Assembly (NCBI RefSeq): GCF_002160145.1 | Contig: NZ_NFKA01000023.1 | Location: 1 to 50,575 of the forward strand | Source of the DNA: Gemmiger sp. An194 | GTDB taxonomy: Bacteria; Bacillota; Clostridia; Oscillospirales; Ruminococcaceae | Reading direction: 5' to 3' | DNA: 50,575 nt | Part shown: piece after piece, positions 2,993 through 35,362 of the stretch | Layout of the letters: the number at the start of each line of letters is the position of its first letter | Position numbering within the stretch: the first letter of the stretch is position 1 | The notes under the pieces: model-generated | What the model was told of the DNA's origin: nothing | Database searches by the model: none | Seen by the model: the letters and a program-made list of their open reading frames with translations, nothing else | Translations under genes and position numbers: made by a program

Positions 2993-3164
2993 GGCAACAC
3001 CACACAATTCACGCCGAACGGCTCAGGCGGCGTATCACGCCAAAATTTTCCGTGCTATTTTCCAAAAATGCGCGCCAAGCCACCAAGGCTTGGCTGTGCT
3101 TTTTGGTTCATATCACAAAAAATTTTCCGGCGTGCTCCACTATCTGGAATTGTGCGGTATTGCC
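2993..3164 (+). mobile_element. MITE/REPIN-like element, copy A (172 bp)
   Basis: The element starts with GGCAACACCACACAATTC and ends with GAATTGTGCGGTATTGCC, an 18-bp inverted repeat with two mismatches. The core holds GCCAAGCC-ACCAA-GGCTTGGC flanked by AAAAA on the left and TTTTT on the right. A side hairpin (ACGCCG/CGGCGT) lies next to the left end. It is non-coding and closely related to three other copies in this window. No clear target duplication is visible. Confidence 0.8.
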
Positions 3165-3208
3165 TTTGTATCCCAAAAGCAATGAACACAGAAAGTGAGA
3201 CATACAAT

Positions 3209-3427
3209 ATGACCAAGGAAAAGATCGCCCGCATCAACGAGCTGGCCAAAAAATCCCGCACCGAGGAAGGCCTCACCGAGGCGGAAAAGGCCGAGCAGGC
3301 CGCCCTGCGCCGGGAGTACATCGACGAGATGAAGCAGAGCCTGCGCAGCCAGCTGGACAACGCCGACTACATCGACGACAAGGGCGTGCGCCGCCCGGTG
3401 TCCGACCTGAAAAAAACGAAGAACTGA
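3209..3427 (+). CDS. DUF896 (YnzC-like) small protein
   Basis: The 72-residue protein opens with MTKEKIARINELAKKSRTEE and matches the DUF896/YnzC family of Firmicutes, small helical proteins of unknown role (the Bacillus member YneA-operon YnzC is linked to the SOS regulon). The start at 3209 matches the family N-terminus; an in-frame ATG at 3182 would add nine residues. The ribosome site is weak (GAAAGTGAG), which is unusual here and may reflect insertion of the repeat element just upstream. A terminator follows. Confidence 0.85.
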   Translation: MTKEKIARINELAKKSRTEEGLTEAEKAEQAALRREYIDEMKQSLRSQLDNADYIDDKGVRRPVSDLKKTKN

Positions 3428-3448
3428 TAAAACAGGCAGCAGCCTGCA

Positions 3449-3482
3449 AAAAGCCCGTACAACCACTGGTCAACGGGCTTTT
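3449..3482 (+). terminator. Intrinsic terminator after DUF896 gene
   Basis: The arms AAAGCCCGT and ACGGGCTTT enclose a 13-base loop, and the stem runs into TTTT. A TATAAT box for the next gene follows at 3490-3495. Confidence 0.7.
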
Positions 3483-3551
3483 GCTATGTTATAATAAAGC
3501 GGTGAATCGAATGATCCGGTTCGGTTCGCACAAAGAGAGGAAGGATTCAAC

Positions 3552-4730
3552 GTGACCAAAGCCCTGATCCGGCTTTTTGTGAAAAACCATGAGAACACCC
3601 GCGACCCCGCCGTGCGCGGCGCCTACGGCCGCATGGCCGGTGTGGTGGGTATCTGCTGCAACCTGGCCCTGTTCGCGGGCAAGTTCATCGCGGGCACCGT
3701 GTTCGGCAGCATCGCCATCGCGGCGGACGCCATCAACAACTTGTCCGACGCGTCCTCCAACATTGTGAGCCTGATCGGCTTCAAGCTGGCGGAAAAGCCC
3801 GCCGACGAGGACCACCCCTACGGCCACGCCCGGTTTGAGTATCTGGCGGGTCTGGCGGTGGCGGTGATGGTGCTGGTCATCGGCGTGGAGCTGGCCAAGA
3901 ACAGTCTGGACAAGATCCTGCATCCCACTCCGGTAGTGTTCAGCTGGCTGTCGGTGGCGGTGCTGGCGGCGTCCATTCTGGTGAAGCTGTGGATGGCGGT
4001 GTTCAATACCCACATCGGCAAGCTGATCGATTCCTCCACCCTGCAGGCCACCGCGGCGGACAGCCGCAACGACGTGCTCAGCACCGGCGCGGTGCTGCTG
4101 GCCACCCTGATCAGCCGGTTCACCCCGCTGGAGCTGGATGGCTGGATGGGCCTTGCGGTGGCGGCGTTCATTCTGTACAGCGGCGCGGGCCTCATCAAGG
4201 AAACGCTGGACCCCCTGCTGGGTCAGGCACCGGACGAGGCGCTGGTGCATTACATCCACGACAAGGTGATGAGTTACCCGGGCGTGCTGGGCACCCATGA
4301 CCTGATGGTGCACGACTACGGCCCCGGCCGTCAGTTCGCCAGCGTGCATGTGGAGATGGCCGCTGAGGGCGACGTGATGGAAAGCCACGATGTGATCGAC
4401 AACATCGAGCAGGACTTCTGGGACAAGGACCACCTGCATGTGGTGATCCACTTCGACCCCATCATCACCAGCGACGAAAAGGTGAACGACGCCCGCCACT
4501 GGCTGGGCGAGCTGGTGAAGGAGATCGACCCGGCGCTGACCATCCACGATCTGCGCATGGTGGCGGGCCCCACCCACACCAACCTGATCTTCGACTGCGT
4601 GACCCCCGCGGGCTTCGAGATGGACGAGGCCGACCTGAAACAGGCCATCAAGCAGGCGGTGCGCAGCCGCCGACCGGATTATTTCTGCGTCATCACGGTG
4701 GAGAGCGGCTACGCCTCCATCCCCCATTGA
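3552..4730 (+). CDS. Cation diffusion facilitator family metal exporter
   Basis: The 392-residue protein is a CDF transporter with about six membrane segments in residues 30-210 and a long cytoplasmic C-terminal part. The transport-site residues appear as N62-xxx-D66 in the second helix (AINNLSDASSN) and D170-xxx-D174 in the fifth (AADSRNDVL). An N/D plus D/D set is known from Mn-exporting CDF proteins such as MntE, whereas Zn exporters usually carry histidine at these places, so manganese is the more likely substrate. The start is a GTG after AGAGAGGAAGG. The aminotransferase gene follows after 34 bases. Confidence 0.9.
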   Translation: MTKALIRLFVKNHENTRDPAVRGAYGRMAGVVGICCNLALFAGKFIAGTVFGSIAIAADAINNLSDASSNIVSLIGFKLAEKPADEDHPYGHARFEYLAGLAVAVMVLVIGVELAKNSLDKILHPTPVVFSWLSVAVLAASILVKLWMAVFNTHIGKLIDSSTLQATAADSRNDVLSTGAVLLATLISRFTPLELDGWMGLAVAAFILYSGAGLIKETLDPLLGQAPDEALVHYIHDKVMSYPGVLGTHDLMVHDYGPGRQFASVHVEMAAEGDVMESHDVIDNIEQDFWDKDHLHVVIHFDPIITSDEKVNDARHWLGELVKEIDPALTIHDLRMVAGPTHTNLIFDCVTPAGFEMDEADLKQAIKQAVRSRRPDYFCVITVESGYASIPH

Positions 4731-4764
4731 TTGGGCATTTTATAAAGGAAAGAAGCGATTCGGC

Positions 4765-5949
4765 ATGGAATTCCGTTATTCAAACAAGGTCAAACAGATG
4801 AAACCCAGCATCATCCGCGAGCTGCTCAAGCAGATGAGCGACCCGCAGCTGATCAGCTTTGCGGGCGGCAACCCGGCGGCGGACAGCTTCCCCGCGGACA
4901 CCATCCGCAAATTCAGCGACGAGCTGCTGGCCACCGACCCGGTGGGCATGCTGCAGTATTCCGTCACCGAGGGCTACGGCCCCCTGCGCAAAGCCGCCCG
5001 GGACTACGCCAACCGTCAGTGGCCGGTGGTGAGCGATGCGGATGATCTCATTATCACCAGCGGCAGCCAGCAGATCATCGAGTTTATGACAAAGCTGCTC
5101 TGCAACGAGGGCGATGTGATCGCGGTGGAGGAGCCCGCCTTTCTGGGCGCCTACAATTCCATGCGCAGTTTCGGCGCGCGGCTGGCCGGTGTGCCTCTGG
5201 AGGCGGACGGCGTGAATCTGGAGGCTTTGGAACAGGTCTTCCGGGATCAGCAGCCCAAGTTCTTCTACTGCATTCCCAACTTCCAGAACCCCACCGGCTA
5301 CACCACCAGCCTGGCAAAGCGCAAGGCCATCTACGAGCTGGCGGTGCGCTACGGCGTGCCGGTGCTGGAGGATGACCCCTACGGCGCGCTGCGCATCTCC
5401 GGCGAAGCGGTGCCGCCTATCAAGCACTTCGACACCACCGGAGCGGTGGTGTATGCCGGGTCCTTCAGCAAGGTGCTCTGCCCGGGCATGCGTCTGGCCT
5501 TCTGCGCCGGTGCGCCGGAGCTCATCGGCAAGATGGTGGTGGCAAAGCAGGGCAGTGATGTACACACCAACGTGTGGGCCCAGCGGGTCTGCGAGCGGAT
5601 TCTGACCCAGACCGATCTGGACGCCCATCTGGCCCGCCTGCAGGACATCTACCGGGACAAGGCCAATTACATGATGGCGGAAATGGACGAAAAACTGGCC
5701 GGCCGGCTGACCTACATCAAGCCCGAGGGCGGCATGTTCATCTGGGCCACCCTGCCCGAAATAGTGGACACCGATGCCTTCGTGAAAAAGTGCCTGGAGC
5801 ACAAGCTGGCGGTGGTGCCGGGCAGCGCCTTCTACACCACCGATGCCGACTGCCCCAGCGTGCGGCTGAATTTCTCCACCCCCTCGAAGGAGCAGATCAA
5901 GCAGGGCGTGGAGATCATGGACAAGGTTCTGCGGGAGCTGGGCGCGTAA
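4765..5949 (+). CDS. PLP-dependent aminotransferase, class I/II (LysN/AraT-like)
   Basis: The 394-residue protein has fold-type I aminotransferase features: NPTGYT for the substrate carboxylate region, EDDPYGAL with the pyridine-nitrogen aspartate, and SFSKVLCPGMR with the lysine that forms the Schiff base. It belongs to the MocR-related subgroup that lacks the DNA-binding N-terminus. Members act as 2-aminoadipate, aromatic or branched-chain aminotransferases with 2-oxoglutarate. The next gene, 48 bases on, makes 2-oxoglutarate, which fits a supply of amino-acceptor. The exact substrate is not visible. Confidence 0.88.
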   Translation: MEFRYSNKVKQMKPSIIRELLKQMSDPQLISFAGGNPAADSFPADTIRKFSDELLATDPVGMLQYSVTEGYGPLRKAARDYANRQWPVVSDADDLIITSGSQQIIEFMTKLLCNEGDVIAVEEPAFLGAYNSMRSFGARLAGVPLEADGVNLEALEQVFRDQQPKFFYCIPNFQNPTGYTTSLAKRKAIYELAVRYGVPVLEDDPYGALRISGEAVPPIKHFDTTGAVVYAGSFSKVLCPGMRLAFCAGAPELIGKMVVAKQGSDVHTNVWAQRVCERILTQTDLDAHLARLQDIYRDKANYMMAEMDEKLAGRLTYIKPEGGMFIWATLPEIVDTDAFVKKCLEHKLAVVPGSAFYTTDADCPSVRLNFSTPSKEQIKQGVEIMDKVLRELGA

Positions 5950-5997
5950 CGCGCTTTCCCCGATTCCCCCCAAACGAGAGAAAGAGAGGACAAGCCG

Positions 5998-7209
5998 ATG
6001 GAAAAGATCAAGATGACCACCCCCCTGGTGGAGATGGACGGCGACGAGATGACCCGCGTGCTGTGGCAGTGGATCAAGGAGGAGCTGCTGTGCCCCTTTG
6101 TGGAGCTGAACACCGAATATTACGACCTGGGCCTGCCCAACCGAGACGCCACCGGCGACCAGGTGACCATGGACGCGGCGCTGGCCAACAAGAAGTACGG
6201 CGTGTCGGTCAAGTGCGCCACCATCACCCCCAACGCCCAGCGTATGACCGAGTATGACCTGCACGAGATGTGGAAGAGCCCCAACGGCACCATCCGCGCC
6301 GTGCTGGACGGCACCGTGTTCCGCGCGCCCATCCTGCTGGACTGCATCAAGCCGGTGGTCAAGACCTGGAAAAAGCCCATCACCATCGCCCGTCATGCCT
6401 ACGGCGATGTGTACAAGGGCACCGAGTTCCGCATCCCCGGCCCGGGCAAGGCCGAGCTGGTGTTCACCGGCGCGGACGGCACCGAAATGCGCCAGACCAT
6501 CTACGATTTCGAGTGCGCAGGCGTTCTGCAGGGCACCTACAACAAGGATACCTCCATCGAGAGCTTTGCCCGCAGCTGCTTTAACTACGCATTGTCCACC
6601 AAACAGGACCTGTGGTTCTCCACCAAGGATACCATCAGCAAGAAATACGACCACACCTTCAAGGACATCTTTGCCGAGATCTACGACAAGGAGTATAAGG
6701 AGCAGTTCGAGGCCGCGGGCATCGAATACTTCTACACCCTGATCGACGACGCGGTGGCCCGCGTGGTGCGCAGCGAGGGCGGCTTCATCTGGGCCTGCAA
6801 GAACTACGACGGCGACGTGATGAGCGACATGGTCTCCACCGCCTTCGGCAGCCTGGCCATGATGACCAGCGTGCTGGTCAGCCCGGACGGCAACTACGAG
6901 TACGAGGCCGCCCACGGCACCGTGACCCGCCACTACTACCGCTACCTGAAGGGCGAGAGCACCTCCACCAACCCCATGGCCACCATCTTCGCCTGGACCG
7001 GCGCGCTGGCAAAGCGGGGCGAGCTGGACGGCAACGAGGCTCTGGTGAAGTTCGCCAAGACTCTGGAAGCCGCCTGCCTGGACACTTTGGCCAGCGGCGT
7101 GATGACCAAGGACCTGTGCGGCCTGGCCGAGGGCGTGGAAACCAAGCCCGTGGACAGCCTGGAGTTCATCCGCGCCATCCGCGCCAACCTGGAAGCCAAG
7201 CTGGCCTGA
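5998..7209 (+). CDS. icd: Isocitrate dehydrogenase (NADP-dependent, homodimeric type)
   Basis: This enzyme oxidises isocitrate to 2-oxoglutarate and CO2. The 403-residue sequence is of the eukaryote-like homodimeric subfamily: it starts with the [15 protein letters not shown] motif, has the substrate loop [12 protein letters not shown], the metal-binding stretch [12 protein letters not shown], and [13 protein letters not shown] for cofactor binding. The ATG follows AGAGAGGACAAG. It is the last gene of a plus-strand run starting at the CDF gene and ends in a strong two-way terminator. In an anaerobe its likely role is glutamate-family amino acid synthesis through an incomplete TCA branch. Confidence 0.95.
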
Positions 7210-7235
7210 GCGCAGGTTTAAACGAGTAAGAAAAG

Positions 7236-7277
7236 AACCGCCCCGGCGGCCGAAGAGTTCGGCTGCCGGGGCGGTTT
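7236..7277. terminator. Bidirectional terminator between icd and the GNAT gene
   Basis: A long hairpin has arms AACCGCCCCGGC and GCCGGGGCGGTT with an inner CCGA/TCGG stem. A-rich and T-rich flanks serve both convergent genes. Confidence 0.8.
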
Positions 7278-7286
7278 TGCGCTTTG

Positions 7287-7703
7287 TTATGGGGTCACGG
7301 ATAACTGCATCCCGTGACCGGCGCGGTCGTTGGGGATGGAGGAAAACCCGAGGGATTCATAAAATGGCTCTTTGCCGCCCGCGCTGACCAGGGCAATGGT
7401 GCAGCGCTCTCCATCGGCAAGGGTCTGCCGGGCATGGGCAATGGTCCGACGGACCAGTTCGCCGCCGATGCCTTTGCCCTGACAGTCCGGTACAACCGCC
7501 ACATCACACAGAAGATAATAGATGCCGTCGCCCACAAGGCGGGCCATGCCCACCGGCTTGCCGTTCTCAAAGGCGGCCACATTGTACGCAGCGGCATTCA
7601 GGGCTCGCTCCAGCTGCGGGGCGGAAAATTCGCTCCAGCCCACGGCGGTGCGAATCCGGTTGACGACCTCCCCCGAAAGGGTATTTTCCCGATAAACGAT
7701 CAT
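7287..7703 (-). CDS. GNAT-family N-acetyltransferase
   Basis: The 138-residue protein shows the GNAT acetyl-CoA loop VVPDCQGKGIGGELVRRTI (about residues 75-95) and the C-terminal EPFYESLGF strand-helix seen in small amine or aminoacyl acetyltransferases. The acceptor is unknown. The ATG at 7703 is preferred because CGGAGG ends eight bases upstream; a GTG nine bases earlier would overlap that ribosome site. It lies downstream of the SLOG-like gene with a 38-base gap and may be cotranscribed. Confidence 0.85.
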   Translation of the reverse strand: MIVYRENTLSGEVVNRIRTAVGWSEFSAPQLERALNAAAYNVAAFENGKPVGMARLVGDGIYYLLCDVAVVPDCQGKGIGGELVRRTIAHARQTLADGERCTIALVSAGGKEPFYESLGFSSIPNDRAGHGMQLSVTP

Positions 7704-7741
7704 GCAGAACACCTCCGAAAAAAGATTGCATCCATTCTACC

Positions 7742-8239
7742 TCAAAAAGGCGGACCAGGCAAGGAGAGGGCAGAGGAACTCTGTTCCGAAGCAAGCAGCG
7801 TGACCGTGAGCAGACCCTTTTGCTGGCGGTGACGGGCGTATTCCACAAGCTTTTGTGTATTGCTTGCCGGATGCAGCATATAGGCGATCAGGCAGTCGGC
7901 ATGGTCAAGTACGTAGCGATTTGCCCGGATGATGGAGACTTTGCGGGGGACCATCTCCATACCCGGCGGATAATATGCGCCATCGAAACCAGCCGGAAGC
8001 TCGACCGGCCGTTCTGCGGGGTGGTAGGGCAGCAAAAGAAGCAGCGAGACGCTGGGGTGTGTCTGTTTGGCGGCAATCACAGCCTCTGCGGCAAGGTGGT
8101 CGAACCTGCCGTAATGACCGACGATAAATTCTGTTACCCCCAGCGTCAGAATGTGCCGTTCCACTTCCGCTCGCAGTATCGGGCCGATTTCAATGGGGGC
8201 ATCCCGGTGGCCCACAAAAAAGCATGTTTTCCTGCACAT
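7742..8239 (-). CDS. SLOG/Rossmann-like nucleotide-binding protein
   Basis: The 165-residue protein starts with a hydrophobic strand and FVGHRDA, and carries VGHYGRFDHLAAEAV, LLLPYHPAERP and DHADCLIAY. This pattern is typical of small proteins of the SLOG (YspA/DprA-like) Rossmann superfamily widespread in Clostridia and thought to bind nucleotides. The biochemical role is unknown. Start codons GTG 8242 and ATG 8239 are adjacent and neither has a strong ribosome site. The gene diverges from the XRE regulator at 8336 across a perfect palindrome and may be its target. Confidence 0.6.
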   Translation of the reverse strand: MCRKTCFFVGHRDAPIEIGPILRAEVERHILTLGVTEFIVGHYGRFDHLAAEAVIAAKQTHPSVSLLLLLPYHPAERPVELPAGFDGAYYPPGMEMVPRKVSIIRANRYVLDHADCLIAYMLHPASNTQKLVEYARHRQQKGLLTVTLLASEQSSSALSLPGPPF

Positions 8240-8251
8240 CACTCTATCACC

Positions 8252-8284
8252 AACCCTTTTGAGTTATATTAACTCAAAAGGGTT
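8252..8284. promoter_or_regulatory. Perfect 33-bp palindrome (putative operator)
   Basis: The arms AACCCTTTTGAGTTA and TAACTCAAAAGGGTT are exact complements around the 3-base centre TAT. The palindrome sits between the divergent SLOG-like and XRE genes, 13 and 51 bases from their starts, where an autoregulatory operator would be expected. It has no T run beyond the arms, so a terminator is less likely. Confidence 0.65.
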
Positions 8285-8335
8285 AAACTTTTCAAGAGGA
8301 AACGGGTATCATTTTTTAAAAGTGAGGTGATGCCC

Positions 8336-8578
8336 GTGAACATTGGCGAAGCGGTGAGGGAACGCATTCTGGAATTGTGCCGGGAGCGGGAACTTTCCAT
8401 CAATAAGCTGTGCAGCATGAGCGGCGTCACCCAGTCCACGGTGAACAACATCATCAGCGGCCGCAACCGCAGCGCCACCGTGTCCACCATTCAGAAGCTG
8501 TGCGACGGGCTGGGCATCACCATCGAGGAGTTTTTCCATTCCCCGCTGTTCCGGGGCCTGGAACAGGAACTGCAATAA
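8336..8578 (+). CDS. Small XRE-family transcriptional regulator
   Basis: This 80-residue protein is a single helix-turn-helix domain: INKLCSMSGVTQSTVNNIIS is the XRE recognition unit, followed by the dimer segment KLCDGLGITIEEFF. GTG 8336 is taken as start because GAGG lies at 8324-8327 and the product begins MNIGEAV as in relatives; GTG 8327 and ATG 8330 are also in frame but sit on the ribosome site. It probably binds the palindrome just upstream. Confidence 0.85.
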   Translation: MNIGEAVRERILELCRERELSINKLCSMSGVTQSTVNNIISGRNRSATVSTIQKLCDGLGITIEEFFHSPLFRGLEQELQ

Positions 8579-8580
8579 AC

Positions 8581-8625
8581 AAAAGCGCCGCCTCCATTGG
8601 TCATTTCCAATGGGGGCGGCGCTTT
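8581..8625. terminator. Bidirectional terminator between two convergent XRE genes
   Basis: The arms AAAGCGCCGCC and GGCGGCGCTTT surround an inner CATTGG/CCAATG stem. Flanking A and T runs suit both strands. Confidence 0.8.
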
Positions 8626-8631
8626 GTTGTG

Positions 8632-9717
8632 TCAGACGCTCGCCTCCAGCCGGGCGAGGGCGGCGGCGAACACCGGGTGGTCCATTAGGGAGCGGTATTT
8701 TTCCTCCTTGTGGATTTCATCCAGCAGCAGGCGGCGCAGCTCCCGGTGGCTGGCCTGGGCGCTTTCCGGGTGCTTGGCGGTCACGCCCGGGGCGAAGATG
8801 TCCGCCCGGGGAAAGGCGGGCGGGCCGGTGAGCACCTCCACATACTGCGCAAAGCAGGTGGCGGCTTCGTCCGGCTGGCCCTCCTGCAGGCACAGCTCCA
8901 TGGCAAGGCCTGCGCTCATGTCCGGAAAATCGAAGGCCCGGGCCAGCGCTCCATAGGCCTCGCACACCGCCCGCTGACGCTCCGGTTCCGGCAGCAGCTT
9001 CGGGTTCATCATCGTGGCCAGCAGGCTCTGGGTCTGGCTGATGAGCTTATACAGCTGCTTCTGGATGGTTTCCAGCGCCTTGCCGGGCTGGCCTGTCTTC
9101 AGGTAATACTGGGCCCAGGCCCCGGTGGGGTCGCCCACCCGCTCGGGCAGCTGGCGCAGCAGCGCCGCGCCCTGTTCCGGGTCGCCGTCCGTGAGCTCCA
9201 GCACCGCCAGCCCGATGGTGGCGGTCTGCCAGTAGGCCGCGTTGCCGCTTTCACGCACCTGCTCCAGCAACTGGCGCTTGCGGGCCCGCCAGCGGGTGCG
9301 CACCTCCTCGCCCGCCGCGGGGAAGAACATGGTCAGCGCGTCATAGCTGGCCACAGCGTTGTATTGCAGGGCGGTGCAGCTGGGGTACTGATGCAGCAGC
9401 TCCTCCAGCTGCCGCTCGGCGGCCTGCCAGCCGTCCGGCTGCTGGCGCATGGCGGTTTCCAGCAGCCGGTTTATCTGCCGCACCACCTCCTCGTCGCTTA
9501 AGGTCTCTTCAAATTGCAGCAGCGCGTCCACGCTGGTGCCCAGCGCCCGGGCCAGCGGGCAGAGCAGAGTGATGTCCGGGTAGGAGGTGTCGGTCTCCCA
9601 CTTGCTCACCGCCGGGGCACTTACCCCCAGCCGGGCCGCCAGCTGCTCCTGGGTCAGGCCCTTTGCCTTGCGGCGGGCCACGATAGCCGCGCCAATTTTC
9701 ATCCGGTTCAGTTCCAT
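8632..9717 (-). CDS. XRE-family regulator with a long TPR-like C-terminal domain
   Basis: The 361-residue protein has an N-terminal XRE domain (KGLTQEQLAARLGVSAPAVS, about residues 17-36). A roughly 290-residue helical region follows, with repeated A/L-rich helices that look like tetratricopeptide-type repeats. Such sensors in Firmicutes often bind a peptide or small ligand through the repeats; the ligand is unknown here. ATG 9717 follows AAGGAG; an upstream ATG region lacks a ribosome site. Confidence 0.8.
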   Translation of the reverse strand: MELNRMKIGAAIVARRKAKGLTQEQLAARLGVSAPAVSKWETDTSYPDITLLCPLARALGTSVDALLQFEETLSDEEVVRQINRLLETAMRQQPDGWQAAERQLEELLHQYPSCTALQYNAVASYDALTMFFPAAGEEVRTRWRARKRQLLEQVRESGNAAYWQTATIGLAVLELTDGDPEQGAALLRQLPERVGDPTGAWAQYYLKTGQPGKALETIQKQLYKLISQTQSLLATMMNPKLLPEPERQRAVCEAYGALARAFDFPDMSAGLAMELCLQEGQPDEAATCFAQYVEVLTGPPAFPRADIFAPGVTAKHPESAQASHRELRRLLLDEIHKEEKYRSLMDHPVFAAALARLEASV

Positions 9718-9849
9718 GGTGTGCTCCTTGTTCGGGTTAAATGGGTGGATGTGCGCCGCGCTCCTTCTGCTTTTATTGTAGTGCATCCCGCCCGCCGCCA
9801 CAAGCGACGGGTGGTTACGCGCCGGGCAGGTTTTTCTGCCCGCTGGTTA

Positions 9850-9884
9850 CAAAAATGCCCCGGGCCGAAGGTCCGGGGCATGGG
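9850..9884. terminator. Hairpin after the membrane XRE gene
   Basis: The arms TGCCCCGGGCC and GGTCCGGGGCA form a compact hairpin just beyond the stop at 9892. The T run on the minus strand is short, so terminator strength is uncertain. Confidence 0.5.
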
Positions 9885-9891
9885 CAGAGAG

Positions 9892-10875: not shown

Positions 10876-11079
10876 ATCCCACAACTCCTTCTCACGGGTT
10901 CTGTTTTGCTGCTCTCATTGTAGCAAAAGCGCCGGTTTTCCGCCACCCAGTTTGCTGTTCAATTTGTCAACCGGCGGTTGCACCGGAGGAAAACCGGCCG
11001 CGCAGGCCCGCCAATCCGGGCAAAAAGAAGCCGCCCGGCCCCATGTTACAACAGGGCCGGGCGTTGTTTTGTTTTGATG

Positions 11080-11625: not shown

Positions 11626-11728
11626 AACGGGATACCTCGCAGGGATCAAAAACGATTGGGTGAATTATTTCCCATTATACCAAAAAAACAGCCGGGGAAC
11701 AATTTGAATTGCCCCGGCTGCGGTAAAA

Positions 11729-11935
11729 TTACTGGTTCCGAGTGTCCAGCTCCCGCTGGATCAGCTCATTGGCGATGGTGAAGGCCTCGATGCGCCGCTT
11801 TGCCAGCGTAAGCTGGGATTTATAGCGGGTCGGGTCTTCCTTTGCTTCAAAGGTCTTCACCGTCTGGCGAAGCTTGTGCAGGGTGGAGTCGATCTGGCGC
11901 TTTGCCTCGGTCAGCTCGTCGCGGGTGTAGTCCAT
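11729..11935 (-). CDS. Small helical protein of unknown function
   Basis: The 68-residue product is strongly charged (MDYTRDELTEAKRQIDSTLH at the start) and probably forms a helical hairpin or coiled coil. No family was recognised. The ATG at 11935 follows GAGAGGACA. It sits 20 bases after the XRE gene at 11956 and is probably cotranscribed with it. Small helical partners beside XRE genes can modulate the regulator, but that is only a suggestion. Confidence 0.6.
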   Translation of the reverse strand: MDYTRDELTEAKRQIDSTLHKLRQTVKTFEAKEDPTRYKSQLTLAKRRIEAFTIANELIQRELDTRNQ

Positions 11936-16150: not shown

Positions 16151-16321
16151 GGCGCTGCCACGGCCTTCACGCCTGCCGGCTCAGGCGGCGTATCGCACCA
16201 AAATTTTCCGTGGAATTTTCCAAAAATACTCGCCAAGCCACCAAGGCTTGCCTGCGCTTTTTGGTTCATTCCGCAAAAAATTTCCGGCGCGCTCCACCAC
16301 CTGAAAGGCCGTGTCACCGCC
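16151..16321 (+). mobile_element. MITE/REPIN-like element, copy B (diverged ends)
   Basis: The core from 16176 to 16295 matches copies A, C and D. The ends differ from those copies but still match each other: GGCGCTGCCACGGCC on the left against the complement of GGCCGTGTCACCGCC on the right. A 20-base near-duplicate of the left end recurs at 16330-16349 (one difference). Confidence 0.7.
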
Positions 16322-27638: not shown

Positions 27639-27671
27639 CAGGAGGCGGAGCCCCAAAGGAGGAAAGAGCCC

Positions 27672-28430: not shown

Positions 28431-28442
28431 TAAAAGCGAAAA

Positions 28443-28482
28443 AGGCTCTGCCCGTGGGTTTTCCACAGGCAGAGCCTTTTTG
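28443..28482. terminator. Bidirectional terminator between traX-like gene and hisS
   Basis: The arms AGGCTCTGCC and GGCAGAGCCT with an inner GTGG/CCAC stem have A and T runs on both sides. Confidence 0.85.
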
Positions 28483-28505
28483 TGTTGAAAAATGGGGCCG
28501 AAAAA

Positions 28506-29750
28506 TCAGCCGTTTGCGCCCAGGGTCTTCACGTCGTCGTTGTCCGCGAAGGCCACGGCGGCAAAGCCCTGATTTTCCAGCGCGCCGAACTGCTTGCCCA
28601 GCTTTTTGGCCTGGGGCAGCACGGTCACGGTGTAGCCCTCCCGCAGGGTGGCCGCCTTGGCCAGCACCTGGGCGAAGTCCGCGTCGGGCAGGTAGAGCAG
28701 GGCCATCTTGGGCTTCTGGGCCGGGATGGCAAAGCCCTGCTCGGCCAGAATGCCGCAGATGCGCTCGAAGCCGATGGAGAAGCCCACCGCGGGCACCTGC
28801 TGGCCGATGAACTTGCCGATCATATTGTCGTAGCGGCCGCCGCCTGCCACCGCGCCGCTGAATGCCGCGCAGGTGACCTCGAACACCATGCCGGTGTAGT
28901 AGCCCTGGCCGCGCACCAGGCTGGGGCAGTAGGCGATCTTATACTTGCCGCCGGCCAGAGTCTCCACGGTGGCGATCACCTTGCCCAGGTTTTCGGCAAG
29001 GGTCTTGTCCTCGCACAGAGCGCCGATGGCCTCCAGGCTGAACTCGCCTTTCGCCAGAAAATCGCTCAGGGCGGCAACGGCCTCGGCGGGGCATTCCTTC
29101 TCGGTCAGCTCCTTGGCCACGCCCTCGGCGCCGATCTTGTCCAGCTTGTCGAAGGTGATGCAGACGCTGTCCAGGCTTTCGGGGGCAAAGCCCATGCTGG
29201 TCAGCATGCCGCGCAGAAGGCGCCGGTCATTGATGTTCACGGTGAAGTCGTCAAAGCCGATGTTCAGCAGCGCCCGGGCGGTCACGTCGATCAGCTCGAT
29301 CTCCGCGTTGCAGGAGCCGTCGCCCAGAATGTCGATGTCGCACTGGACGAACTCACGCATCCGGCCCTTCTGGGGCCGCTCGGCACGGAACACCCGGTCG
29401 GTCTGGATGACCTTGAAGGGGCTGGGCAGCTTGTCCTTGTTGGCGGCGTAGTAGCGGGAGAGGGGCAGAGTCAGGTCGTACCGCAGGCCCATGTCGGACA
29501 GATCCTTTTCGTTGCCGGAGGCAATGGCGCTTGCCAGCTTGTCGCCCCGCTTGAGTACCTTGAAGATCAGGTTCAGGTTGTCGCCGCCGTCGCTCTTGTC
29601 CAGATTCTCCATATCCTCCAGCATGGGGGTGGAGATGCGCTCGAAGCCGCTGGCGCGGTAGGTTTCCAGAATGCGGCCCTGCACATAGTCGCGCAGCGCC
29701 TGCTCTGCGGGCAGATAGTCCTTCATGCCCTTCAGCGGATTGGTTTTCAT
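28506..29750 (-). CDS. hisS: Histidine--tRNA ligase
   Basis: The 414-residue class II synthetase charges tRNA-His. Motif 2 is FRAERPQKGRMREFVQCDID. The histidine-specific loop reads LVRGQGYYTGMVFEV and motif 3 ends AVGFSIGFER. The C-terminal anticodon domain is short, ending VKTLGANG, so the usual LKDL-type tail is reduced. ATG 29750 follows GGGAGGAAC. A TTGACA/TATCAT promoter (29828-29833 and 29804-29809, minus strand, 18-base spacer) lies against repeat copy C. No T-box is seen. HisZ at 36135 is a separate paralogue. Confidence 0.92.
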   Translation of the reverse strand: MKTNPLKGMKDYLPAEQALRDYVQGRILETYRASGFERISTPMLEDMENLDKSDGGDNLNLIFKVLKRGDKLASAIASGNEKDLSDMGLRYDLTLPLSRYYAANKDKLPSPFKVIQTDRVFRAERPQKGRMREFVQCDIDILGDGSCNAEIELIDVTARALLNIGFDDFTVNINDRRLLRGMLTSMGFAPESLDSVCITFDKLDKIGAEGVAKELTEKECPAEAVAALSDFLAKGEFSLEAIGALCEDKTLAENLGKVIATVETLAGGKYKIAYCPSLVRGQGYYTGMVFEVTCAAFSGAVAGGGRYDNMIGKFIGQQVPAVGFSIGFERICGILAEQGFAIPAQKPKMALLYLPDADFAQVLAKAATLREGYTVTVLPQAKKLGKQFGALENQGFAAVAFADNDDVKTLGANG

Positions 29751-29833
29751 TGATGTTCCTCCCACAAATCTATTTTAATGAAATAAAGTGCTTTTATCTT
29801 CTAATGATAGCCCGGCGAGCCGGTATTTGTCAA

Positions 29834-30005
29834 GGCAACACCGCGCAATTCCAGATGGTGGAGCACGCCGTAAAATTTTTTGTGAGATGAAGCAAAAAGC
29901 GCAGCCAATCCTTGGTGGCTTGGCGAGCATTTTTGGGAAATATCACAGAAAATTTTGGCGCGATACGCCGTCTGAGGCGTTTGCCGTGAATTGTGCGGTA
30001 TTGCC
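29834..30005 (-). mobile_element. MITE/REPIN-like element, copy C (172 bp)
   Basis: It is inverted relative to copy A and of exactly the same length. The ends GGCAACACCGCGCAATTC and GAATTGTGCGGTATTGCC form inverted repeats that extend a few bases into the flanks. It fills most of the 306-base gap between hisS and the MFS gene and lies directly beside the hisS -35 box. Confidence 0.8.
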
Positions 30006-30056
30006 TCAACAAAAAGGGGGAACACTAAGCCAAAAAGAAAAGAGAGGAACAAAACA

Positions 30057-31232
30057 ATGGGGCAGTTTGTGAAACAGCACCCCTGGGCGATCCTGGCGGC
30101 GGGGGCGGCCATCCAGCTGCTGGCGGGCATCCCCACCGCCTGGGGCGTGTTTCAGGAGCCGGTGCGCTCAGAATACGGCTTTGAGGAGGAAACGGCCAGC
30201 TTTGTGCTCAGCTGGCTGGTGGCGGCCTTCGGCGCGGGCGGGGTGGCCGGCGGCTTTTTGCAGGATAAACTCGGCCCCCGCTTCGCCGCCCTTTTGGGCA
30301 GCGCCGGGCTCTGCGCCGGGTTCGTGGCGGCGGGCTTTGTGCCCGGGCAAATGCCTTGGCTCTTTTATCTGGCCTTCAGCGCCCCGGTGGGGGCGGGCTG
30401 CGCCTTTTTGTACCCGGCGGTGATGGGCTGCGCCCAGAAATGGTACGCGGACAAAAAGGGCCTTGCCACCGGGGTGATCGGCGTGGCGGTGGGGCTGTCC
30501 GGCGCGGCGCTCACGGTGCTGGTGAAGTGGTTCACCGGGCTGTGGGGCATCCGGGGCTGCTTCTGGGCATTGGGGGCGCTGCTGGGCCTTGTGTGCGGCG
30601 GGGCAAGTCTTTTGCTGCAGAACCCGGAAAAAGCGCCCGCGGCCCCAAAGCAGCAGGGCATGACCCCGGGGCAGATGCTGCGCACCTCCGCCTACTGGTG
30701 GATCACCGCCTCGGTGGCGCTGGCCACCCCGGCGGTTCTGCTGTTCAGCCCCCGGATTCTGGAGCTGGCCCGGCAGAGCGGCCTGCCGGAGACCGCCGCG
30801 GCCTGGATGGTGGCGGTGGGCGCGGCGGGGTCCGCCGCAGGGCGGCTGAGCCTTGCCGCGGCGGGGGACAAGCTGGGCCGACGGGCGGTGCTCATCGCCG
30901 CCTTCGGGGCGCTGGCGGCTTTGTCCGCCGGATTTGCCTTGGTGAAAGAATGGCTGTTTCTGGCCGTTTACGCCGGGCTGTGCTTTTTCTATGCCGGTCA
31001 GGCGGCGGTGCTGCCCAGCCTCTGCACCGAGCGGTTCGGCCTGGCCCACACCGGGGTTAACTATGGTCTGCTGGCGCTGGGGATGGCGGCGGGCAGCCTG
31101 GGCTTTCCCTTCGCGGCCAAGGCCCTTGGTCTGGACGCCGGGCGGCACTGGCTGGCGGTGGGCGCGGCGCTGGCCGGGGCCTTCTGTTTGTGGAAGCTGG
31201 GCCCGGTGCAAAAGAAGAAAACCTCCGGTTGA
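30057..31232 (+). CDS. MFS transporter, OFA (oxalate/formate antiporter)-like
   Basis: The 391-residue protein has 12 predicted membrane helices. The first loop, GGFLQDKLGPRFAALLGSAG, is the MFS A-motif and the middle repeat is GDKLGRRAVLIAAFG. The start WAILAAGAAIQLLAGIPTAW with VFQEPVRSEYGF is typical of the OFA family, whose members carry oxalate, formate or other monocarboxylates. The substrate cannot be assigned. AGAGGAAC precedes the ATG. The stretch between it and repeat C holds no clear promoter. Confidence 0.85.
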   Translation: MGQFVKQHPWAILAAGAAIQLLAGIPTAWGVFQEPVRSEYGFEEETASFVLSWLVAAFGAGGVAGGFLQDKLGPRFAALLGSAGLCAGFVAAGFVPGQMPWLFYLAFSAPVGAGCAFLYPAVMGCAQKWYADKKGLATGVIGVAVGLSGAALTVLVKWFTGLWGIRGCFWALGALLGLVCGGASLLLQNPEKAPAAPKQQGMTPGQMLRTSAYWWITASVALATPAVLLFSPRILELARQSGLPETAAAWMVAVGAAGSAAGRLSLAAAGDKLGRRAVLIAAFGALAALSAGFALVKEWLFLAVYAGLCFFYAGQAAVLPSLCTERFGLAHTGVNYGLLALGMAAGSLGFPFAAKALGLDAGRHWLAVGAALAGAFCLWKLGPVQKKKTSG

Positions 31233-31322
31233 CAGCGCCCTTTGGGAATGCTATGGTGAAGGTAACCGGGCGGGCCCGGTGCGAGGGTCCGCCGCATTAT
31301 AATGGTAAAGGAGCGATTCCCC

Positions 31323-32120
31323 ATGGCAAAACTGGATGGTAAAGCGGCACTCATCACCGGCGCGGCGGCCGGACTGGGCGAGGGCATTGCCACCGCCTAC
31401 GCAAAATACGGCGCAAAGATGGTTCTGGTGGACCTGGACCCCCGCGTGGAAGAGACCGCCCAGCGGCTGCGCGCCGAGTACGGCAGCGAGATCATCACCG
31501 TAGTGGCCAACGTGGCCGACCGGGCCCAGATGGACGAGGCCGCCCGCAAGGGCGCGGAGGCCTTCGGCGCCATCGACATCGCCTGCTGCAACGCGGGCGT
31601 CTGCCGCCTGGCCCCCTTTGAGGAGATGGACGACGCCACCCGGGATTTCCACATCGATGTGAACATCAAGGGCGTGTGGAACACCTGCAAGGCGGTTATC
31701 CCCTATATGCTGAAGCAGGGCGGCGGCAGCATCGTGATCGCCTCTTCCGTCACCGGCGACATCGTGGCCGACGCGGGCGAGGCCGCCTACGCCATGACCA
31801 AGGCCGCGCTGGTGGGCCTGACCAAGTGCCTGGCGGTGGAGTACGCCGGGCGCAACATCCGGGTAAACTGCTCCCAGCTGGGCTATGCCCGCACCCCCAT
31901 GGTGGAGAAGATGGCGGTGGAATCCAACCCCGAAAACCCGGAAGCTGCCATTGCGGCCATCGCGGCGGGCGTGCCCATGGGCCGGCTGGCAAAGCCCATC
32001 GAGGTGGGCGAGCTGTTCGCTTTTCTGGGCAGCGATGAATCCAGCTATCTGACCGGCAGCCAGATCGTGATCGACGGCGGCAGCACCCTGCCCGAGACCA
32101 TGAGCATCGGCACCAACTGA
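31323..32120 (+). CDS. Short-chain dehydrogenase/reductase (UcpA-like)
   Basis: The 265-residue classical SDR has TGAAAGLGEG (residues 12-21) for the cofactor, D37/D39 after the second strand (suggesting NAD rather than NADP), CNAGV, and the catalytic set N114, S141/S142, Y156 and K160 (YAMTK). It oxidises or reduces an alcohol or ketone whose identity is unknown. A ribosome site (AAGGAGCG) precedes ATG 31323. It follows the MFS gene by 90 bases; a shared transcript is possible. Confidence 0.9.
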   Translation: MAKLDGKAALITGAAAGLGEGIATAYAKYGAKMVLVDLDPRVEETAQRLRAEYGSEIITVVANVADRAQMDEAARKGAEAFGAIDIACCNAGVCRLAPFEEMDDATRDFHIDVNIKGVWNTCKAVIPYMLKQGGGSIVIASSVTGDIVADAGEAAYAMTKAALVGLTKCLAVEYAGRNIRVNCSQLGYARTPMVEKMAVESNPENPEAAIAAIAAGVPMGRLAKPIEVGELFAFLGSDESSYLTGSQIVIDGGSTLPETMSIGTN

Positions 32121-32135
32121 CCGGAAAAACAAAAA

Positions 32136-32170
32136 GGGCCGCGCACCGTGAAGATACGGTGCGCGGCCCT
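32136..32170. terminator. Bidirectional terminator after the SDR gene
   Basis: The arms AGGGCCGCGCACCGT and ACGGTGCGCGGCCCT surround GAAGAT. A runs precede and the opposite gene ends 20 bases later, so it serves both. Confidence 0.85.
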
Positions 32171-32188
32171 TGCTGCATTTCGTGACGC

Positions 32189-32440
32189 TTAGCCCTTGGT
32201 GTCGCCGAACAGGTTGAAGCGGTAGAGCTTGGCCTCGTCCTCGGGCTCGGAGCACTCGAACTTGGCCTCGGCGATCTGGCCGCCCTGAATCAGGGTGGTG
32301 AAGCCGATCAGCTGGCACAGCTTGCTCTTCAGGTTCAGCCGGTCGCCCTCGGGGGTGATCATGTAAATGTCGCCCTTGCAGGAGGCCAGCATCTCGCTGA
32401 AATCACGAACATTGAAATTATGAAGACTGATGCGATCCAT
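32189..32440 (-). CDS. Small HPr-like protein of unknown function
   Basis: The 83-residue protein has a sequence pattern that recalls the HPr fold (ASCKGDIYMITPEGDRLNLK, then SKLCQLIGF) but lacks the phosphorylatable histidine region of HPr. Similar short proteins are common in Ruminococcaceae and carry uninformative names. A strong promoter on the minus strand (TTGCAC at 32583-32588 and TATAGT at 32560-32565, 17 bases apart) implies a leader of about 110 bases with a CCCGGC/GCCGGG hairpin. The HPr comparison is tentative. Confidence 0.6.
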   Translation of the reverse strand: MDRISLHNFNVRDFSEMLASCKGDIYMITPEGDRLNLKSKLCQLIGFTTLIQGGQIAEAKFECSEPEDEAKLYRFNLFGDTKG

Positions 32441-32704
32441 AAAACGGATTCCTCACTTTCGTTTTTGCAGGCCCCGGCGCATCAAACAAGCCGGGCCGCC
32501 TTCTCTGGCAGTTGCCAATACTTTCTCCCTCGCGCGGGCCTTGCCGCCCGTGCACCTATACTATAGCACTGCATTTGTGCATGTGCAACAATGAAAATGG
32601 TGTTTCTTTGTACGTATTGACGATTTAATTCGCACAAAAATCCAGCAGCGGGCAAAAACGGGAAGGGCGGTGCAATTTTTTGGCTGAACAAATGGAAAAA
32701 CGCC

Positions 32705-32733
32705 TTGCAAAACCATTCGCCCCTATTTATAAT
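32705..32733 (+). promoter_or_regulatory. Strong promoter of the NifU-like/GGGtGRT operon
   Basis: TTGCAA (32705-32710) and a perfect TATAAT (32728-32733) are separated by 17 bases. The rest of the 355-base gap 32441-32795 holds the opposite promoter for the HPr-like gene and nothing else recognisable. Confidence 0.75.
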
Positions 32734-32795
32734 GAGAAGGTAGATGTTGTGAAATCCGCAACAAGCTTACAAAGAGAGCAAAGGAGAGTACTATT

Positions 32796-33488
32796 ATGAC
32801 CTATTCTCATGAAGTAGAGCGTATGTGTCCTCTGACCAAAGGCCCCCATCACGGCCCCGCCCCCATCCCGGAGGAGGGCGCCTGGGTTAAGGCCTATGAG
32901 ATCAAGGATATTTCCGGCCTGACCCACGGTGTGGGCTGGTGCGCCCCTCAGCAGGGCACCTGCAAGCTGACTCTGAACGTTAAGAACGGCGTGATCGAGG
33001 AAGCTCTGGTCGAGACCATCGGCTGCTCCGGCATGACCCACTCCGCCGCTATGGCCGGCGAGATCCTGCCCGGCAAGACCATCCTGGAAGCTCTGAACAC
33101 CGACCTGGTGTGCGACGCCATCAACGTGGCTATGCGCGAGCTGTTCCTGCAGATCGTTTACGGCCGCAGCCAGACTGCCTTCAGCGAGGGCGGCCTGCCC
33201 ATCGGCGCCGGCCTGGAGGACCTGGGCAAGGGTCTGCGCAGCATGACCGGCACCATCTTCTCCACCAAGGCCAAGGGCGTTCGTTACCTGGAGCTGACCG
33301 AGGGCTACATCCTGAAGACCGCTCTGGATGAGAACAACGAGGTCATCGGTTACCAGTTCGTCCGTCTGGGCAAGATGCTGGAAGCCATCCGTCACGGCGA
33401 GGACCCCAAGACCGCGTTCGAGAAGAACATTGGCACCTACGGCCGGTTCGATGGCGCTGCCAAGTACATCGACCCCCGCGAAGAATAA
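32796..33488 (+). CDS. NifU-like iron-sulfur scaffold-family protein (partner of GGGtGRT protein)
   Basis: The 230-residue protein has a NifU/IscU-like N-terminal fold with cysteines in VGWCAPQQGTC, TIGCSGMTHS and DLVCDAIN plus an early RMCPLTK. These could bind an Fe-S cluster, as in the scaffold family. An additional C-terminal region of about 90 residues is not found in IscU. The gene is always, in my recollection of gut Clostridia, next to the GGGtGRT gene, as here (18 bases). AAAGGAGAG precedes the ATG. Codon use is shifted to GCT, GTT and CGT, a sign of very high expression. Its biochemical role is not established. Confidence 0.8.
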   Translation: MTYSHEVERMCPLTKGPHHGPAPIPEEGAWVKAYEIKDISGLTHGVGWCAPQQGTCKLTLNVKNGVIEEALVETIGCSGMTHSAAMAGEILPGKTILEALNTDLVCDAINVAMRELFLQIVYGRSQTAFSEGGLPIGAGLEDLGKGLRSMTGTIFSTKAKGVRYLELTEGYILKTALDENNEVIGYQFVRLGKMLEAIRHGEDPKTAFEKNIGTYGRFDGAAKYIDPREE

Positions 33489-33506
33489 GAGAGGAGGAGA
33501 AACATT

Positions 33507-34499
33507 ATGGCTACTTTTGAATCTATGGATCGCCGCATGCCCAAGATCGAGGCATGCCTGAAGGCCAACGGCCTGGAATCCCTGGACGCCTGCCGTGAGA
33601 TGCTCCTCGAGAAGGGCATCGACTGCGACGCTATTGTTAAGGGCGTTCAGCCCATCTGCTTTGAGAACGCCGTTTGGGCTTACACCCTGGGCACCGCCAT
33701 CGCTGTGAAGCGTGGCCTGAAGAACGCCGCCGAGTGCGCCGCCGCCATCGGCGAGGGCCTGGAGGCTTTCACCATCCCCGGTTCTGTTGCCGAGCAGCGC
33801 AAGGTTGGTCTGGGTCACGGTAACCTGGGCGCCATGCTGCTGAGCGACGAGACCAAGTGCTTCGCCTTCCTGGCTGGCCACGAGAGCTTCGCCGCTGCTG
33901 AGGGCGCCATCGGTATCGCCCGCACCGCCAACAAGGCTCGTAAGACCCCTCTGCGCGTTATCCTGAACGGCCTGGGCAAGGATGCTGCTTACATCATCAG
34001 CCGCATCAACGGCTTCACCTACGTGGAGACCGATTATGACTTCAAGACCGGCGAGCTGAAGGTTGTTCGCGAGAAGGCTTTCTCCGACGGCGAGCGCGCT
34101 GCTGTTAAGTGCTACGGCGCCAACGACGTTCTGGAAGGCGTTGCCATCATGAAGGCTGAGGCTGTTGAGGTTTCCATCACCGGTAACTCCACCAACCCCA
34201 CCCGTTTCCAGCACCTGGTTGCCGGCACCTACAAGAAGTGGGCCATCGAAAACGGCAAGAAGTACTTCTCCGTTGCTTCCGGCGGCGGCACCGGCCGTAC
34301 CCTGCATCCCGATAACGTGGCTGCCGGCCCCGCTTCCTACGGCCTGACCGACAGCATGGGCCGTATGCACGGCGACGCTCAGTTCGCCGGCTCCTCCAGC
34401 GTGCCCGCTCACGTGGAGATGATGGGCCTGATCGGTATGGGCAACAACCCCATGGTTGGCGCCACCGTGGCCTGCGCTGTTGCTGCTTCTCAGGTCTAA
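33507..34499 (+). CDS. GGGtGRT protein (uncharacterised conserved protein)
   Basis: The 330-residue protein contains the name-giving motif GGGTGRT at residues 259-265 in FSVASGGGTGRTLHPDN, plus other glycine-rich turns (VGLGHGNLGAM, GLIGMGNNPMVGATV). No membrane helix or signal peptide is present. Its function is unknown. Pairing with a NifU-like protein suggests a cluster-dependent enzyme or a cofactor-binding partner. The codon use is even more biased towards fast codons than in the gene before it. GAGGAGGAG precedes the ATG and a strong terminator follows. Confidence 0.85.
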   Translation: MATFESMDRRMPKIEACLKANGLESLDACREMLLEKGIDCDAIVKGVQPICFENAVWAYTLGTAIAVKRGLKNAAECAAAIGEGLEAFTIPGSVAEQRKVGLGHGNLGAMLLSDETKCFAFLAGHESFAAAEGAIGIARTANKARKTPLRVILNGLGKDAAYIISRINGFTYVETDYDFKTGELKVVREKAFSDGERAAVKCYGANDVLEGVAIMKAEAVEVSITGNSTNPTRFQHLVAGTYKKWAIENGKKYFSVASGGGTGRTLHPDNVAAGPASYGLTDSMGRMHGDAQFAGSSSVPAHVEMMGLIGMGNNPMVGATVACAVAASQV

Positions 34500-34533
34500 T
34501 CGACCCGTTAAGCACACTGTGTTTTGACAAAGA

Positions 34534-34566
34534 GCACCGTCCCCTTTTGGGGGCGGTGCTTTTTTG
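34534..34566 (+). terminator. Terminator of the NifU-like/GGGtGRT operon
   Basis: The arms GCACCGTCCCC and GGGGCGGTGC are followed by six T. Confidence 0.88.
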
Positions 34567-34681
34567 TGTGCCCAAAGGGGGACGCCGGTGGATTTTTGCC
34601 GCCTGCGCACTGGCTTTTTTGCTGGATTGTATGCTACAATAAGAAAAATAATGCAGTCCAAAAAAGAGGAGGCGGCGGGTT

Positions 34682-35098
34682 ATGTATGATATGGCGGAAT
34701 CACAGATGACCCTTTACGATTATGTGCAGCCCTTTGGGGGAACACTGGATGAGAATAACCGCTGGGTGAAGCTGGCGAAGGAGATCGACTGGCAGGAGAT
34801 GGAGCGCCACTATGCGGGCAACTTCGGCCGGGCAGGCAATCAGGCGCTGCCCCTGCGCATGGCCTTCGGCAGCCTGGTCATCCGCCAGGCGCTGGAGCTT
34901 TCCGACCGGCAGACCGTGCAGATGATCCGGGAAAACCCCTACCTGCAATACTTCATCGGCATGACCAGCTTTAGCCACACCGCGCCCTTTGTGGCCCACA
35001 GTATGGTGGGCTTTCGCCAGCGCATTCCCCAGGAGCAGGTGGACAAGGCGGTGAAGCTGTTCAAACGCATTTCCCGCCAGTGCGAGCGGGAACAGTGA
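34682..35098 (+). pseudogene. Truncated transposase (DUF772 N-terminal domain only)
   Basis: The 138-residue reading frame matches the N-terminal DUF772 domain of IS5/IS1182-group transposases (TLYDYVQPFGGTLDENNRW, ENPYLQYFIGMTSF, VGFRQRIP). It ends before any DDE catalytic domain, and the following 90 bases encode nothing similar in any frame. The frame is intact and has a good ribosome site (AGAGGAGG), so a short protein may still be made; it could bind DNA without catalysing transposition. No flanking terminal inverted repeats of a full insertion sequence are seen. Confidence 0.65.
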
Positions 35099-35190
35099 GG
35101 GGCGTTTCGGCATAAAATAAAGGCGGCGCGTTCCGGTTATCCAATGTGATAAAGTCACTTTTCAAATGCACGCTAACATGATAGAGTTTG

Positions 35191-35362
35191 GGCAGCACCA
35201 CATAATTCCAGGTGGTGGAGCACGCCGGAAAATTTTTTGCGGAATGAATCAAAAAGCGCAGGCAAGCCTTGGTGGCCCCGCGAGCATTTTTGGAAAATTC
35301 CACAGAAAATTTTGGCGGGATACGCCGCCTGAGGCGTTCGCCGTGAATTGTGTGGTGGTGCC
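35191..35362 (-). mobile_element. MITE/REPIN-like element, copy D (172 bp)
   Basis: It has the same orientation and length as copy C. The ends are GGCAGCACCACATAATTC and GAATTGTGTGGTGGTGCC. The core hairpin is partly decayed (GGTGGCCCCGCGA instead of GGTGGCTTGGCGA). It lies in the 342-base gap upstream of rubrerythrin, whose promoter must lie in the 78 bases after it or inside it. Confidence 0.8.

Follow-up and report, generated by a model that had tools for sequence, protein, structure and literature searches.

A probable IS5-type MITE family with a conserved interior fold and exchanged ends in Gemmiger sp. An194 and related genomes

Miniature inverted-repeat transposable elements (MITEs) are usually seen as decaying leftovers with an unimportant interior. 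Type II MITEs are defined by terminal repeats in common with an insertion sequence (IS) and by an interior unrelated to it (PMC10969869), and YTAR is reported as the target duplication of the IS5 family (PMC10359306). Here, we describe a family of repeats of about 172 bp, four of which lie in a stretch of 50,575 nucleotides from Gemmiger sp. An194 (RefSeq assembly GCF_002160145.1, contig NZ_NFKA01000023.1, positions 1 to 50,575 of the forward strand), hereafter the window. In this family the interior is conserved across an order of bacteria, and it is the ends that change.

With a probability of roughly 0.8, we read the four repeats as full-length, non-autonomous type II MITEs of the IS5 kind, with a conserved interior fold and exchanged ends. 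Empty sites, an excess of 4-bp flanking repeats and ends of the IS5-family type point to a mobile element of the DDE type. The repeats, and the idea that they are MITEs, come from a preliminary description of the window; added to it here are a conserved, strand-specific fold, a wide distribution and a change of ends. Genomes are referred to below by G numbers and loci by L numbers.

The four copies in the window

The copies lie where the preliminary description had placed them, two in each orientation, with lengths of 172, 171, 172 and 172 bp. Their features are as follows, copy 1 being given in its original orientation.

2993..3164, + strand: copy 1, full-length; the better-folding strand is the - strand; the ortholog in An50 is 98% identical
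2993..3010, + strand: left terminal inverted repeat of copy 1
3013..3022, + strand: side hairpin of copy 1, GCC-GAAC-GGC
3074..3094, + strand: central hairpin of copy 1, GCCAAGCC / GGCTTGGC
3147..3164, - strand: right terminal inverted repeat of copy 1, reading GGCAATACCGCACAATTC on the - strand
16151..16321, + strand: copy 2, full-length, 171 bp, with divergent ends
29830..29833, no strand: left target-site duplication of copy 3, TCAA, single in empty sites
29834..30005, - strand: copy 3, full-length; filled in An50, empty in An87 and Fournierella massiliensis
30006..30009, no strand: right target-site duplication of copy 3, TCAA, single in empty sites
35191..35362, - strand: copy 4, full-length; in An50 and An87 the matched flanks enclose a 172-bp gap

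Copies 2-4 are 87-89% identical to copy 1 where aligned, which for copy 2 means 142 of the 172 positions. The 18-bp terminal inverted repeats proposed earlier are present but imperfect, and the central stem GCCAAGCC/GGCTTGGC, thought to be common to all four copies, is perfect in copy 1 only. The middle pair of the side hairpin alternates between C-G and G-C among copies. Copy 1 has fold z scores of -8.9 and -9.1 on its two strands. All four window copies are intergenic and non-coding, as claimed; for copies elsewhere the gene calls are too crude to be used. Only two of 10 open reading frames beside copies have a Pfam match.

Target duplications and empty sites

At copy 3, the window reads ...TTTGTCAA, the element, then TCAACAAAAAG, and the empty site in An87 and F. 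massiliensis reads ...TTTGTCAACAAAAAG; in An50 there is a 172-bp gap between matched flanks. The site of copy 4 in F. massiliensis is without such an element. Locus L015 is empty in An50, with its 4-bp target single, and at L019 and L020:16600 a relative is without the element, the sites being inexact. Empty sites, and a genome with more than the four window copies, are thus on record, the reverse of the two outcomes that the preliminary description had named as fatal to mobility.

Flanking repeats were counted in 52 copies from the window genome and An50, some of them orthologous. Flanks of length 4 match at 129 of 208 positions, against 80.9 after shuffling, and 11 copies have exact 4-bp repeats, against 1.41 shuffled (maximum 6). 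There is no excess at 3 bp, and the excesses at 5-8 bp are small. A larger set of 126 elements, orthologs included, holds 55 exact 4-bp flanking repeats, with a mean of 9.75 and a maximum of 18 for shuffled partners. TTAA accounts for 25 of these 55 and YTAR for 29; the other 26 are other, mostly AT-rich 4-mers.

Ten ortholog pairs, L017/L081 among them, show copies common to the window genome and An50, so insertions span a long time. At the young end, genome G134 has three identical copies (L118, L121 and L122) and a fourth, L120, with one base different; exact TTAA flanks three of these four. The element also has these features of a type II MITE: a length within 50-500 bp, no transposase gene, terminal inverted repeats, target duplication, empty orthologous sites, and similarity to autonomous IS confined to the ends but for one weak internal match in G160, these IS being in other genomes and not in the window's. 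The terminal repeats lie within helices 1-2 of the fold described below, where 96-97% of cells are paired.

IS5-family elements with the same kind of ends

A search of ten element-rich genomes with PF01609 gave matches in five and led to an IS in G129. It is 1136 bp long, is flanked by CATA at either end and encodes, between GGCAACACCGCATATATCC and GGCACCACCGCACAATTGCC, a 325-aa transposase. The transposase belongs to the IS5 family (319.7 bits with NF033581, cut-off 140), and an end of the IS has 17 identical bases in common with two copies of the window genome. Three further IS have GGCA-type ends: one of 1133 bp in G160 (8 gene copies; an exact duplication, TTAT, in one of four copies among the matches listed), one of 1136 bp in G208 (flanks not identical) and one of 1137 bp in G539 (TTAG on both sides, gene interrupted). 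Single GGCA-type ends adjoin gene pieces in G200, G159 and G227. When five such IS are compared with the MITEs, the best matches are 15-19 bp at the ends, together with a weak internal match in G160 (33 bp, 79-82%). Plasmid relatives of the IS5-type element are annotated as ISPre1, IS1384 and ISPst7.

Element and transposase also tend to occur together: in a sample of 247 genomes of the family, the element is present in 7 of the 15 that have the transposase and in 42 of the 232 that do not (Fisher p = 0.014, pairing two 247-genome draws taken as the same draw). A longer, transposase-bearing element with the same kind of ends, of the sort that the preliminary description had suggested looking for, is present in other genomes, and none was found in the window genome. 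There, inspection by eye of ends with up to 2 mismatches, and of part of those with 3, gave no transposase-bearing pair 0.8-3.5 kb apart. Two candidate pairs were rejected: inward-facing ends 2.8 kb apart at C1:87244/90061 are two separate short elements around other genes, and a 1742-bp pair in G134 (C2:3517734/3519461) is a 172-bp element plus another end, with no transposase recognized by eye.

In the window itself, a 138-aa gene on the + strand (34682-35098) precedes copy 4 by 92 bp. Of an IS5-type transposase it has the N-terminal DUF772 domain alone (NF033578, 133.6 bits, cut-off 275), and it is catalytically incomplete. The gene is intact in An87, An50 and F. massiliensis, with synonymous to nonsynonymous codon changes of 5:0, 7:1 and 9:1. 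Given the intact reading frame and the few nonsynonymous changes, it may be domesticated.

Copy number, lengths and shortened forms

The window genome (3,071,855 bases, 50 contigs) is related to F. massiliensis. BLASTN of copy 1 against it gives at least 26 full or nearly full copies, including the four of the window, with the best 40 of 55 candidates scored, and a few copies may be missed. One further full copy, at C49:18810-18981, and several short ones came from a search for ends. About 15 shorter forms measure 128, 94-95, 69, 68, ~60, 45-47 and 32 bp, sizes that were set partly by eye. In place of the ‘hundreds per genome’ expected earlier, there are some 27 full and some 15 shortened copies here. 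The relative G134 (2 contigs, 3.6 Mb) is richer, with ~160 copies and 164 + 163 ends, against 1 + 0 for a reversed-pattern control. An apparent strand bias of the G134 copies was discarded as an effect of the listing, known - strand copies being absent among the matches listed.

Two main lengths recur. When only the terminal repeats are used to delimit the element, a length of exactly 172 bp is found for 25 of 33 end pairs less than 260 bp apart at the G134 loci retrieved. Across the order, the scan brings out a second class, of ~157-161 bp, and some elements of 190-193 bp. Aligned examples of the ~160-bp class are without the side hairpin, and in one 193-bp form 20 bases are inserted at the central hairpin.

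We compared six shortened copies of the window genome with their relatives, and five of them (L030:7245, L036, L034, L031 and L029) are longer in at least one relative, four being full-length there and one ~130 bp. The 94-95 bp forms are consistent with deletion between repeats AAAATTTTCC. Short forms therefore look mostly like decay in place, which, together with the identical full-length copies of G134, suggests that the core matters more for spreading than for staying. The Subdoligranulum variabile set was found with a full-length query and is unusable as evidence on decay.

Change of ends

At least five kinds of ends are found on the same core: GGCAAYACCGC, GGAACCYCTGAATAAAT, GGTTCRGRTGTC, GGTCACCTCTAAAAACC and GGCTTCCCCGCATAAAT, the last four being represented by three, three, one and one sequences. 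In pairwise comparison, G129 and G310 agree at 67/82 positions of the core and at 7/21 and 10/21 of the ends; G494 and G535 at 56/70, and at 10/21 and 12/21; and G219 and G008 at 68/103 including an insertion, and at 10/21 and 11/21. These comparisons show that the ends have changed on the same core.

Whether the ends follow the local IS is another question, and here the comparisons give only partial support. For two of the kinds, matching IS5-type ends exist in the element's own genome, and IS ends of the element's kind occur within the genomes of G129, G160, G227 (one end), G539 and G535 (one end). G535 carries a transposase fragment (52.3 bits, below the cut-off), and ~200 bp beyond it lies GGAACCTCTGAACAA, which is also seen at one end of its element L198. 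Against this, in G219, G545 and G468 the IS ends are GGAACC-like and those of the element examined are GGCAA-like, so that five genomes searched with NF033581 and having visible IS ends give the element's kind in two (G539 and G535) and another kind in three. NF033581 has no match in G310, G376, G466, G475 and G008, which leaves the GGTTCAG and GGTCACC ends without a partner.

Conserved fold and strand asymmetry

RNAalifold predicts 45 pairs for 53 sequences, 25 of them with double changes. For 38 more diverse sequences read on the opposite strand, there are 54 pairs with 96.0% of cells paired, and 38 of the 54 show double changes. The covariation score is 0.511, against 0.070-0.118 for slid structures and with 0 of 500 shuffles reaching it; this same alignment yielded the structure, which is thereby favored. 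In helices 2 and 3, every one of the 17 pairs has double changes.

Folding favors the same strand in each of the 38 sequences (the + strand of copy 1 is the worse one), a count that carries less weight than 38 independent events would, the sequences being related. Mean RNA energies are -91.7 kcal/mol for the better strand and -68.9 for the other, and DNA parameters give -50.4 and -40.1; because both sets yield 38 of 38, folding energy does not tell RNA and single-stranded DNA (ssDNA) apart. In a strand-neutral structure with Watson-Crick pairs only (40 sequences), the remaining cells, read on the + strand, comprise 99 AC, 53 GT and 86 of other kinds; AC versus GT has a naive binomial p of 0.0002, the sequences not being independent. 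Covariation and the favored strand together suggest that a single-stranded form, RNA or ssDNA, is under selection. Rfam gave no match on an element, either in the window at gathering thresholds or at ten loci at E<=0.5.

One G134 copy, L141:3294-3465, combines the left part of one subfamily with the right part of another, as if recombined between copies of that genome.

Spread among genomes

Model R1 finds the element in 49 of 247 genomes of the family, from 28 of 126 genera, and model R2 in 43 of 345 genomes of the order, presumably Oscillospirales, from 27 of 162 genera and, by genome labels, ten families. Both scans covered samples under strict filters, and weak single R2 matches may be chance, such as that in G032, which involves the middle of the model only. 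BLASTN matches 6 of 41 genomes, namely four of the seven of the genus (window genome included) and two others. A 28-base pattern from the core occurs in 43 stretches of the genome collection, all from An50, An87, F. massiliensis or one uncultured Ruthenibacterium bin; this search may omit records very near the window genome. Phage records and viral contigs gave no match with one pattern and one BLASTN search. Four plasmid-collection records labeled S. variabile do match and are taken to be chromosomal pieces. No paper on this element family was found in the literature covered, most subscription journals lying outside that coverage.

Three placements are recorded here as side observations. A copy in G219 (L135:1002-1174) begins 4 bases past the end of an RNase P RNA match, and in G533 three near-identical copies form a direct repeat at 348-349 bp spacing (L205:385-1253). 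The window ends, at 45470-50575, in an rRNA operon with tRNA-Ala and tRNA-Ile between 16S and 23S, the last position falling within 5S.

Weighing the explanations

For the preferred reading, that of type II MITEs of the IS5 kind, we propose that an IS5-family DDE transposase encoded elsewhere recognizes GGCAAYACCGCACAATT-type ends and would move the element in trans, leaving a 4-bp AT-rich duplication, most often TTAA. As to the partner, the ends, the duplications and the empty sites are observed, as are IS5-family elements elsewhere whose ends are of this kind and whose duplications are equally long. The 172-bp interior does not derive from the IS; it is a conserved fold with helices kept by compensatory changes and better formed on one strand, and here it is the covariation, the strand asymmetry, the length and the spread that are observed. 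The fold may act single-stranded, as RNA or as ssDNA during transposition, for the element's own spread, since young copy sets are full-length and most shortened copies compared are in-place deletions. The core has also acquired different ends, two kinds of which match IS5-type elements of the same genome, the rest having no partner found.

A bolder version is that the element is a mobile structured RNA or ssDNA device parasitizing IS5-family transposons, in which the fold promotes its own spread in cis, the ends are changed repeatedly to fit a new transposase, and the fold is the lasting identity. We hold this tentatively, at rather short of even odds. If the fold were needed in cis, there would be a case, open to testing, in which a structured single strand serves a DDE transposon, and this could explain why some MITEs outlive the IS that move them. 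In any case, the family is a ready marker set for these genomes.

Several observations tell against the preferred reading. No homolog of the G129 transposase (E<=1e-20) was found in the window genome, G002 or G004, in a listing that does not include G001; 42 of the 49 element-bearing genomes of the family sample are without a transposase of this type at the same threshold, and G134 is not among the 15 positive genomes despite ~160 copies, several of them identical. PF01609 has no match in G138, G011, G139, G257 and G212, and PF13586 nothing above its cut-off in 12 genomes. We read the absence from most element-bearing genomes as loss or turnover of the IS, and a second mobilizer is possible. 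G134 also has a pair of 46-bp forms, nearly identical and exactly duplicated at their flanks, that may move without the core. As to decay, no longer form of L030:10062 was found in relatives, with flank borders set for a 172-bp element, nor one of L029 in a second relative (L050), where there is a gap without a match. Finally, quasi-palindrome correction, which yields compensatory changes without selection, is visible in two S. variabile copies, L116:44136-44307 and L117:4001-4172, where one central hairpin arm looks as if it had been copied from its partner.

This last observation leads to the alternative of an ordinary MITE, a long imperfect palindrome whose covariation comes from such correction by template switching and from descent, with no selection for a single strand. 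Besides the two rewritten arms, a block change at positions 83-86 between copy 4 orthologs fits it, and palindromic MITEs with stable stem-loop transcripts are described as common in reviews (PMC2229807, PMC10969869). Correction alone, however, gives no reason for a favored strand, yet all 38 sequences favor the same one; nor does it sit easily with double changes in every pair of helices 2 and 3, or with the recurrence across groups of non-complementary sequence next to the central hairpin, GCAG to one side of it and C[GA]AG to the other. We judge this alternative somewhat unlikely.

The core might instead be a regulatory or insulating RNA that is mobile and is kept because the host benefits from it or at least takes no harm, a role proposed for ERIC, BOX or Correia elements. 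The strand-specific fold would suit such a role, and ERIC is reported to act on mRNA stability in an orientation-dependent manner (PMC2229807). In 10 ortholog pairs, the element is also less diverged than its 150-bp flanks (78/1725 versus 228/3019). At L022/L039, however, it is more diverged than the flanks (20/175 versus 9/300), as if overwritten by another copy, so gene conversion may lower element divergence elsewhere. The core was lost in place at five of the six loci compared, and no consistent orientation to neighboring genes was seen, with crude gene calls, opposite tendencies in two samples, and G134 loci chosen from a list dominated by + hits; the last result also counts against the preferred reading. 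A host-serving RNA is, in our view, quite improbable.

Mobilization by the IS1182-type element of the window genome deserves mention as this is the only PF01609 match there; its score is 389.3 bits for IS1182, and with the IS5 model NF033581 it comes just above the cut-off (144.2 against 140), but the inverted repeats around it (GAAATGCAGCAGCCTTTCAG) differ from GGCAAYACCGC, and we regard its involvement as highly improbable. REP and REPIN elements (RAYT) are, as usually defined, without target duplication, and on the evidence of flanks, sites and ends a REPIN-like element moved by a RAYT transposase, the other option of the preliminary description, is very unlikely: short intergenic palindromes in both orientations and many copies would suit it, but the 4-bp duplications, clean empty sites and ends common to IS5-family elements would not.

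Comparison with known systems

Like type II MITEs, the elements are small and non-coding, with terminal repeats, target duplications and ends that match autonomous IS. Unlike them, they have an interior that is a conserved covarying fold of two main lengths (~172 and ~160 bp), and this core is found in at least 28 genera of the family sample, carried between different ends. The ends and the 4-bp duplication are shared with the IS5 family (NF033581 type); in contrast to it, the element is without a transposase gene, and it resembles such IS over no more than 15-19 bp at the ends, leaving aside the weak internal match in G160. ERIC or IRU elements (127 bp, enterobacteria) and YPAL (~168 bp, Yersinia) are similar in size, long stem-loop, copy number and mobility, but belong to other hosts, and were compared by published description (PMC2229807). 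RUP, BOX and SPRITE of Streptococcus pneumoniae are likewise non-autonomous and structured, in another host; this comparison draws in part on a review (PMC10969869). The kind of element, a MITE, is known; what is new is its conserved and strand-specific fold, how widely that fold extends, and that the ends have changed.

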